Shown: piece by piece, positions 25,382 through 39,445 of the stretch
How positions within the stretch are numbered: position 1 is the stretch's first letter
Layout: each line of letters opens with the position of its first letter
Source of the DNA: Natrialba hulunbeirensis JCM 10989
GTDB lineage: Archaea > Halobacteriota > Halobacteria > Halobacteriales > Natrialbaceae
Assembly (NCBI RefSeq): GCF_000337575.1
Contig: NZ_AOIM01000037.1
Coordinates: forward strand, 181,616-235,631
Reading direction: 5' to 3'
Length of the DNA: 54,016 bases
Position numbers and translations under genes: made by a program
Notes under the pieces: model-generated
Databases searched by the model: none
What the model was told of the DNA's origin: nothing
The model's input: the letters and a program-made list of their open reading frames with translations, nothing else

Positions 25382-25511
25382 CGAGGCGAAAGCCTCGCCC
25401 TTGAGGGGCATGGCGAGAGCAAAGCTCTCGCTGTCGTTCGAGAGACGTACGTCTCTCGTGATGACGAGACGCTCCGCGTCTCGAACCACAACCGAAAAGC
25501 GAAGCTTTTCG
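25382..25511 (+). repeat. Array of five perfect hairpins in transposon left end
   Basis: CGAGGC-GAAA-GCCTCG (25382-25397), GCGAGAGC-AAA-GCTCTCGC (25413-25431), CGAGAGACGT-ACGTCTCTCG (25439-25458), CGAGACGC-TCC-GCGTCTCG (25465-25483) and CGAAAAGC-GAA-GCTTTTCG (25493-25511). Linkers are 15, 7, 6 and 9 nt. The fourth hairpin with its flanks (TGATGA before, AACCAC after) recurs at 39402-39432 with a different loop. Only one hairpin is normally needed at the end of such an element. Confidence 0.85.
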
Positions 25512-25613
25512 AGGACGGGGATGAAGCCGACCAACAGTATTCAACCACCGTCGATGGCATAGGCGGGGTTCCAACGCAGTCTTTAAGCCACCCGACCATG
25601 ATAGTGTACAAAG

Positions 25614-26045
<432 letters not shown>

Positions 26046-26239
26046 AGCGCGTCAACACCTTCGAAGTGGTTCCACAGACCGAGAACGACAAAGAGTGCCT
26101 TCTGCGGCTACTCGACGCCTCTGCCTCCCTGTGGAACGAACTCACCTACGAACGCCGTCAGAACTACTTCGGTGACGGCGACGTGTGGGACACTTCCGAA
26201 TACCGTGGACAGTACAACGGTGTCGTCGGAAGCGCGACG

Positions 26240-26280
<41 letters not shown>

Positions 26281-26335
26281 GTTCTTCGCTCTCAAAGAGA
26301 AAGGCGAGGACGCCAACCCACCGTCGTACTGGGGT

Positions 26336-26386
26336 CTTGGAGAGCGAAGCTCTCCAATGGTCGGCGAATCGTAGATTCGCCTCGAC
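26336..26386 (+). repeat. 51-nt two-hairpin insert carrying a stop codon
   Basis: TTGGAGAGC-GAA-GCTCTCCAA (26337-26357) and GGCGAATC-GTA-GATTCGCC (26363-26381), separated by TGGTC. It adds 17 codons to tnpB at the WG-N junction, the same length as the tnpA insert, and its second loop creates TAG in frame. Confidence 0.82.
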
Positions 26387-26491
26387 AACGAGGAGGAAGG
26401 ACGCGAACTCCGCACCTACATCCGATGCAACCAGTACACGATTGAGTGGGGGAAGCGTAGCCGTCTGGAAATTCCTGTCGGGCAAGAACTG

Positions 26492-26536
<45 letters not shown>

Positions 26537-26818
26537 GTCCGAGGCAACCCGAAGTGGGACGGCAAACAGGGTCGTCTGGAACTTGAGTACGACGAAATGA
26601 GCGACACGTTCAGGGCTTTCCAACCTGTCACCGTACCTGATTCTCGACTGGATTCACCACTGGCTTCGGAAGAAGCCGCCCTCGACGTTGGCGCGAACAA
26701 TCTCGTCGCCTGTTCCACGACCACTGGGAACCAGTACCTCTACGATGGGCGGGAATTGTTCGGACGGTTCCGCGAAACAACAGACGAAATCGCCCGCCTA
26801 CAGTCGAAATTGCCCGAG

Positions 26819-26923
26819 AGACGCAGTCTCTCGGAATCAAGCGAAACCTCCGGTTTCGCGGACGTCGCGGAGCTTCGCTCCGCTCAGTCACGGAAGACGG
26901 AGTCTTCCGGACGACTCCGAGAG
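26819..26923 (+). repeat. 105-nt four-hairpin cassette inside tnpB
   Basis: Four perfect hairpins: CCGAGAGAC-GCA-GTCTCTCGG (26814-26834, its first bases shared with host sequence), GCGAAACC-TCC-GGTTTCGC (26841-26859), GCGGAGC-TTC-GCTCCGC (26867-26883) and CGGAAGAC-GGA-GTCTTCCG (26891-26909). Linkers are AATCAA, GGACGTC and TCAGTCA. The same hairpin order and nearly the same linkers occur at 39318-39445 in reverse orientation. It adds 35 codons without a stop. Confidence 0.85.
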
Positions 26924-27096
26924 GGACGCTACAGTTCCAAGCGGATTCGACGGCTGTACCGACAGCGGACGAAACGCCGTGACCACGCACAGAACGCGCT
27001 GGTGCGCGACCTCGTTGAACGGCTGTACGACGAGGGCGTGGCGACAGTGTACGTGGGCGACTTGACCGACGTGCTTGAAACGCACTGGTCGGTCAG

Positions 27097-27140
<44 letters not shown>

Positions 27141-27310
27141 TCCACCGTCTCGCGTGCGTCTGTGAAGAATACGGTATCAGCCTCGAAGCCGAGTCGGAAG
27201 CGTGGACGAGTCAGACATGTCCTGAGTGTGGCGACCACGAGGAGACGGTTCGCCACGAAGATACGCTGACGTGTTCATGCGGATTCGAGGGACACGCCGA
27301 CCTCACAGCG

Positions 27311-27391
<81 letters not shown>

Positions 27392-27399
27392 GACTGGTC

Positions 27400-27527
<128 letters not shown>

Positions 27528-39175: not shown

Positions 39176-39317
39176 TCGATCACTCTTCGCTATCTCTCGG
39201 CGGACCGATGCGTAAAGCGTTCTCGGAATCGCCGGCCGGCGTAGCCGTATACCTTCGGGCGTTGAAAGCAGACAACAGAAAATTTCGTGGGCAGTCTACA
39301 GGCGGAGCAGGCCGAGT

Positions 39318-39445
39318 GCCTCGGGGTCGTACGGAAATCGGAGATTTCCGTGACTGAGCGGAGCGAAGCTCCGCGATGTCCGCGAGACCTTCGGTCTCGC
39401 TTGATGACGAGACGCGAAGCGTCTCGAACCACTTGACCCCGAGGC
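39318..39445 (-). repeat. 128-bp four-hairpin unit with terminal inverted repeats
   Basis: GCCTCGGGGTC (39318-39328) and GACCCCGAGGC (39435-39445) are perfect 11-bp inverted repeats. Inside are four perfect hairpins: CGGAAATC-GGA-GATTTCCG (39332-39350), GCGGAGC-GAA-GCTCCGC (39358-39374), GCGAGACC-TTC-GGTCTCGC (39382-39400) and CGAGACGC-GAA-GCGTCTCG (39408-39426). The three linkers are all 7 nt. Read on the minus strand, the order and linkers match the cassette in tnpB at 26819-26923. The 90-codon minus frame across it is not accepted as a gene. It could be a non-autonomous relative or remnant of an IS200/IS605 end. Confidence 0.82.

Follow-up and report, generated by a model that had tools for sequence, protein, structure and literature searches.

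We conclude that the four-hairpin feature between azlC and SAMP in the stretch of Natrialba hulunbeirensis DNA analysed here (54,016 nucleotides, the window) is probably a haloarchaeal transposable element of the SMR-A kind, non-autonomous and built of double hairpins, that sits in the right-end palindrome loop of a 53-bp terminal-only remnant of an IS605-type element. This reading comes from comparing the window with related sequences, above all with copies of the same sites in which the unit is missing or present in part.

The azlC-SAMP insert and its host element

An earlier note on the window had described a free 128-bp unit closed by 11-bp perfect inverted repeats, which when reversed matched a cassette inside tnpB. 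Both arms are there and are perfectly complementary (GCCTCGGGGTC, 39318-39328, and GACCCCGAGGC, 39435-39445), the four hairpins between them are all perfect and have triloops, and the linkers of the unit and of the tnpB cassette are as the note gave them. The reversed unit and the cassette are 82% identical over 93 nt (E = 1e-19), and the match is not a chance one. Folded as single-stranded DNA, the feature reaches -49.5 kcal/mol (z = -7.0), a value equalled by none of 200 shuffles. The long triloop hairpins of the window are clustered in its IS605-type element (25413-26909) and in the azlC-SAMP unit.

The unit does not end at the 11-bp repeats. In a sister genome (G005, locus L055) an uninterrupted 53-bp copy of the host element reads TCTACAGGCGGAGCAGGCCGAGT-GCCTCGGGG^CTTGACCCCGAGGCGGTTCAC, in full TCTACAGGCGGAGCAGGCCGAGTGCCTCGGGGCTTGACCCCGAGGCGGTTCAC, with nothing inserted, and the repeats belong to its palindrome. 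The same right-end palindrome is found 3' of tnpB genes in L004, L023, L028 and L205, and GCCTCGGGG and CCCCGAGGC are therefore the right-end palindrome of an IS605-type family. This palindrome is 9 bp long, the two further complementary bases in each arm being due to chance. The reported match after the fourth hairpin (ACGACYCCGAG) is also coincidental: past ACGA, CCCCGAGGC is host palindrome at azlC-SAMP, while ACTCCGAGAGGG in tnpB is native gene sequence that is present in cassette-free copies as well. Nor does the unit lie free in the chromosome, as had been supposed, but within the remnant of another mobile element. On these comparisons, the true build at azlC-SAMP is a 53-bp PATE/IS605-end remnant holding a 105-bp insert, which consists of two nested blocks, an outer type-1 unit of 54 bp with a 51-bp block in its linker:

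39295..39326, + strand: left part of the 53-bp terminal-only IS605-type (PATE-like) element, TCTACAGGCGGAGCAGGCCGAGT and palindrome arm GCCTCGGGG (from the L055 copy)
39327..39431, + strand: 105-bp inserted double-hairpin array with four hairpins (from empty/occupied comparison at the right-end target)
39331..39351, + strand: hairpin 1, 9-bp stem, loop GGA
39354..39404, + strand: inner type-2 block, CTGAGCG-hairpin-CGATGTCCG-hairpin-CGCTTGA, lying within the type-1 unit's TGATGA linker
39358..39374, + strand: hairpin 2, 7-bp stem, loop GAA
39382..39400, + strand: hairpin 3, 8-bp stem, loop TTC
39408..39426, + strand: hairpin 4, 8-bp stem, loop GAA
39432..39452, + strand: right part of the 53-bp element, with the CTTGA loop, palindrome arm CCCCGAGGC and the end GGTTCAC (from the L055 copy)

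The tnpB cassette has the same 54 + 51 architecture, and the inner blocks of the two loci are identical at 45 of 51 positions. The note had proposed looking for further copies and for strains that lack the unit, and both exist. A second copy, 95% identical, lies elsewhere in the window's own genome, where a covariance model of the unit finds eight places, and the 53-bp element with its unit is repeated at many loci of the genus. The composite at azlC-SAMP is missing in the relatives G005 and G003; since the intergenic sequence has diverged, the edges of the gap are approximate.

The 53-bp element, compared with the PATE family by description, has a near-terminal palindrome in common with IS605-type elements and no gene, and it is like the 52-bp core-deleted terminal-only PATE described in the available part of PMC3119063. 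The PATE is the host of the double-hairpin unit and not the unit itself.

Anatomy of the unit

Copies were collected with the core pattern TGATGACGAGAN{5,13}TCTCGAACCAC, which leaves hairpin A free apart from its outer bases; two-hairpin units make up 122 of the 149 distinct copies. In the basic unit, about 54-62 bp long, a fixed linker joins a pair of perfect triloop hairpins, and the ends are fixed as TCGTTCG and CGAACCA. The consensus of the aligned type-1 copies is TCGTTCG-hairpin A-CGTGATGACG-hairpin B-CGAACCA, with G to its left and C to its right, and the short form is TCGTTCG-hairpin-TGATGA-hairpin-CGAACCA. The ends (GTCGTTCG and CGAACCAC) form an imperfect 8-bp inverted repeat.

The stems vary greatly. 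The arms of hairpin A, perfect in 88 of 115 odd-length cases, fall into 32 types. Standard pairs fill 98.3% of the paired cells. Both sides have changed in 102 cells; shuffles gave 30 such cells and slid controls no more than 26. G-U pairs are rare in the stems. C-G closes 181 of the 183 perfect hairpins, and 136 of the 183 have a GNA or TNC loop, split 74:62. Close copies differ by flipped loops (for example GCA/TGC or GAA/TTC) and by whole arms altered together. As read from the aligned copies, the stems are freely rewritten yet kept complementary.

Triloops of the GNA type closed by C-G form unusually stable mini-hairpins in DNA. Because the GNA and TNC loops are split evenly between the strands, a fixed RNA is hard to reconcile with the unit. 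The linkers GTGATGA (in the window at 39401-39408, for instance) and CTGA look like the C and D box motifs of archaea, for which a fixed RNA is disfavoured because of the same even split of the GNA loops.

Insertion sites and targets

Empty sites were sought by joining the flanks of the 122 type-1 copies as ...G^C.... Similar sequence spans the junction for at most 91 of them, an upper figure that includes some self-matches and loose alignments. Among these are the uninterrupted homologous targets of L055, L150, L077 and L114 and the native tnpB around L089. No target duplication was seen at the empty and occupied sites, and the empty sites keep a single G^C. The left flanks have no fixed tetra- or pentanucleotide, G^C alone being common to them. 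The earlier note had taken the unit for something mobile, found both between and within genes. That part stands, with empty and occupied sites at tnpA, at tnpB and at both transposon ends; the 128-bp unit with 11-bp ends does not. On the evidence of these paired sites, the unit is mobile.

Palindromes are preferred as targets. Units of the right-end class share one orientation and occupy the 5' edge of the loop. Of the other targets, 42% fall within perfect inverted repeats 9 bp or more in length, compared with 5% of control GC steps, and 18% within repeats of 12 bp or more, compared with 0.1%. A test for palindrome centres, with arms no more than 4 nt from the junction, gave no excess, because the 5-nt loop of the right-end palindrome lies to one side of the junction.

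A palindromic element of larger size, with AAAGCCCCAGCC close to one of its ends, is host to many units in several genera (L068, L122, L126, L171 and similar loci) and looks like an uncharacterised mobile family.

Insertions in the IS605-type element

Eighteen relatives of the window's IS605-type element, mostly 91-96% identical to it over the tnpB query, were aligned with it. The genes and inserts of the window's element are:

25408..25515, + strand: double-hairpin block at the left end of the element (alignment of IS copies)
25434..25488, + strand: type-1 unit, inserted at G^C into the linker of the left-end block (alignment of IS copies)
25614..26045, + strand: tnpA (Y1 transposase, PF01797), cassette-bearing (Pfam)
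25675..25725, - strand: 51-bp in-frame type-2 block in tnpA (alignment of IS copies)
26042..27472, + strand: tnpB (PF01385, PF07282), with two cassettes and one in-frame TAG (Pfam)
26335..26385, + strand: in-frame double-hairpin block of 51 bp, found in the tnpB of the window alone (alignment of IS copies)
26809..26913, - strand: 105-bp in-frame tnpB cassette, 54-bp outer and 51-bp inner (alignment of 18 close IS copies)
26840..26890, - strand: 51-bp inner block of the tnpB cassette, confined to the window and L288 (alignment of IS copies)

Nesting can be followed step by step. Most left ends are empty; the block is present alone in L297 and L300, and in the window it contains a type-1 unit. 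In tnpB most copies are again empty, L286, L287 and L289 carry 54 bp, and the window and L288 reach 105 bp because a 51-bp block entered the linker of the 54-bp unit. A third level is seen in L198 (around 1390-1500), where a double-hairpin block lies in the linker of the inner block of a type-1 unit. The 51-bp tnpA block is also present in L290, L292, L295 and L301, with other stems and loops; the remaining tnpA copies are uninterrupted at GCCGA^AGTATCGGC or at a variant of that sequence. In a comparison with the PDB structure 2ec2, the tnpA cassette falls exactly between two aligned segments.

All inserts in tnpA and tnpB have lengths that are multiples of three. The frame is open in all five carriers of the tnpA block and, for tnpB, in L286, L287 and L289, so that short hairpin elements add coding segments to TnpA and TnpB with the frames kept open. 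The tnpB of L288 has decayed, and that of the window has an in-frame TAG (26372-26374) in the GTA triloop of the cassette at 26335..26385. L089 was considered as a further in-frame tnpB insert and rejected: its unit, inspected by eye, brings a TGA in the tnpB frame and is a disruption. A search of long open frames with Pfam gave no convincing case of a unit inside an ordinary protein gene.

On a tree of the IS copies built without the cassettes, the cassettes are scattered; gain, loss or recombination has therefore been repeated, and the scatter appears to fit all three alike. Once inserted, cassettes could spread through homologous recombination between IS copies. At the right end, a two-hairpin unit identical in stems and loops is present in the IS605-type copies L210, L023, L028 and L205, which lie at four different sites and whose tnpB genes are only 83-85% identical. 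The unit is thus more conserved than tnpB, perhaps because it is now part of the omegaRNA or has been converted between copies. Insertion in the omegaRNA-encoding right end has a bearing on the evolution of RNA-guided nucleases.

Comparison with known elements

The azlC-SAMP feature is a better resolved form of a known, unexplained kind. The SMR-A repeats of Haloquadratum walsbyi (HqIRS42, HqIRS43 and HqIRS55) are described, in the part of PMC3119063 available, as about 110 bp long, with inverted ends unrelated to known transposons and no target duplication. They occupy near-terminal palindromes of PATEs and IS605-type elements, their insertions are strain-specific and their mobilisation is called 'enigmatic'; HqIRS55, with 10 strain-specific insertions, is among the most active mobile elements of strain C23 (PMC3119063). 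Compared by description with that part of the account, our unit agrees in length (105 bp at azlC-SAMP and in tnpB), in the lack of target duplication and in its right- and left-end palindrome targets. Beyond the account so far as it was available are the nested double-hairpin blocks, the fixed ends and linkers, the rewritten stems, the GNA/TNC loops, the order-wide occurrence and the insertion, in frame, into tnpA and tnpB. The short mobile repeats of haloarchaea, called 'enigmatic', thereby gain a defined anatomy of ends, linker, stem and loop rules and target site.

The unit differs from IS200/IS605 elements in being 105 bp long with no gene, and its left flanks have only G in common. REPINs share with it the two inverted hairpins and non-autonomous mobility, but they go with a cognate Y1 transposase (RAYT), whereas 7 of the 19 genomes with many copies of our unit have no PF01797 match. 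Rickettsia palindromic elements (RPE) are palindromic units inserted in frame in genes; compared by plan, the haloarchaeal unit differs in that the genes it interrupts are transposon genes and in that its insertion is nested. The nearest analogues in plan are the double-hairpin elements and GC clusters in the mitochondria of fungi and algae, which are short mobile palindromic units with rapid turnover that merge into compounds and whose mechanism is unsettled (e.g. PMC4478555). These are elements of organelle genomes, and the likeness is one of plan only; we do not claim common descent. Yeast GC clusters have putative target duplications, unlike the haloarchaeal unit.

Movement of the units and alternative explanations

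Comparison of the sequences shows that a unit enters at a G^C step and leaves the target unduplicated, with a preference for the loops of larger palindromes and the linkers of resident hairpin pairs, and that copies nest like Russian dolls to give arrays of two, four and six hairpins. The loop chemistry and the choice of targets suggest that the moving or recognised form may be single-stranded DNA folded into hairpins. Some host or mobile-element enzyme would recognise the conserved ends and linkers; a specific mobilising factor is likely because these are conserved and the stems are not. The arms may be kept complementary through template switching or gene conversion, in which one arm is copied onto the other and arm sequences are swapped, and the flipped loops would be a product of this arm copying. 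Template switching or gene conversion is suggested because the rewriting of arms has left few intermediates and because loops are flipped between close copies. In-frame, stop-free insertions in tnpA and tnpB would survive since the transposon genes remain usable. The mobilising factor can be tested for in culturable haloarchaea by means of the empty and nested sites assembled here.

One candidate for a mover acting in trans is the Y1 transposase TnpA of IS200/IS605 elements, in the manner of RAYT enzymes with REPINs. Units are found in and around IS605 ends, they resemble REPINs in their two hairpins and near-inverted ends, and like IS200/IS605 elements they show no target duplication. However, a detectable Y1_Tnp domain (PF01797) was missing in 7 of 19 genomes with many matches and in 7 of 18 with few or none, which is no association (unit counts here were at most 13 per genome among the matches listed, partly from both strands). 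The left flank offers G^C but no fixed target of four or five nucleotides, and units enter inside palindromes rather than beside them. It seems unlikely that TnpA is the mover. An element acting at the level of RNA, as a structured RNA or part of an omegaRNA copied back through reverse transcription, would fit the strong covariation and the single orientation in the omegaRNA-encoding right end of tnpB. Such an RNA would be expected to fix one loop orientation, but GNA loops are about equally common on both strands; G-U intermediates are rare, and Rfam has no matching family. We consider this reading improbable.

It was suggested in 2011, for Haloquadratum, that SMR-A repeats inactivate IS605 elements, and SMR-type repeats would then be a cellular defence against these elements and PATEs (PMC3119063, as far as available). 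The strong targeting to IS605-type elements and PATEs, described there and seen here too, agrees with a defence, as do the stop inside one tnpB cassette of the window and the stop brought by the unit in L089. Against it, the cassettes in tnpA are in frame and open in every carrier, and those in tnpB are open in three. The identical right-end unit at four sites, with tnpB only 83-85% identical, means that its carriers keep moving. Intact, dispersed carriers argue against repeats that exist to inactivate IS605 elements, and a defence is very improbable. Scarcely credible is a decayed full insertion sequence that once had four hairpins. The unit does sit in a terminal-only IS605-type remnant, but the right-end palindrome of that remnant is known uninterrupted from L055, and discrete empty, 54-bp and 105-bp stages occupy identical positions in otherwise intact elements. 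The choice between gradual decay and a discrete unit, raised in the earlier note, thus falls to the discrete unit.

Distribution and related families

Of the 81 genomes sampled from the host order, 77 gave hits of the covariance model for the type-1 unit; 312 other genomes of the phylum gave none. The core pattern matched at least 118 stretches in named genomes. Within the host family it matched 93 of 125 genomes, and its reversed control gave no match in any genome of the family listed. Among the matches listed, the carriers are haloarchaea or archaeal metagenome assemblies so named. The exact pattern had no match in a viral contig collection, and the window, L089, L198, L195 and L010 had none in Rfam at gathering thresholds.

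Hairpin pairs of the same design are not confined to type-1 units. In 400 kb of genome G342, evenly sampled, we found 17 pairs, families with other linkers included, compared with 2 in shuffled sequence; in 400 kb of G004 none were found. Over the examined loci, which are biased to type-1 copies, the centres of 257 pairs are mostly separated by 22-29 bp; C-G makes up 505 of their 514 closing pairs, and GNA or TNC 73% of their loops. We tentatively suggest that haloarchaea may host a class of transposase-free double-hairpin elements, comprising several families with differing linkers, each built from a pair of GNA/TNC triloop hairpins that are closed by C-G and spaced 25-28 bp from each other. 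Such elements might insert by single-strand hairpin recognition unlike known transposition, grow by nesting in each other's linkers and repeatedly supply new in-frame segments to transposase and TnpB.

The families with other linkers in G342 (L266, L272, L273, L279, L280, L281, L283) have forms such as GTC-GCCGGC...-TGCCA-GAGG... and TTCACGAGAGC...-GTGAGCCAATCAGAACGC-..., and in this genome some pairs lie next to each other and are perhaps nested. In L084 (6900-7150, Halorubrum coriense) and in L158 (380-580) the unit is duplicated in tandem with an N between the copies, possibly as an effect of assembly.
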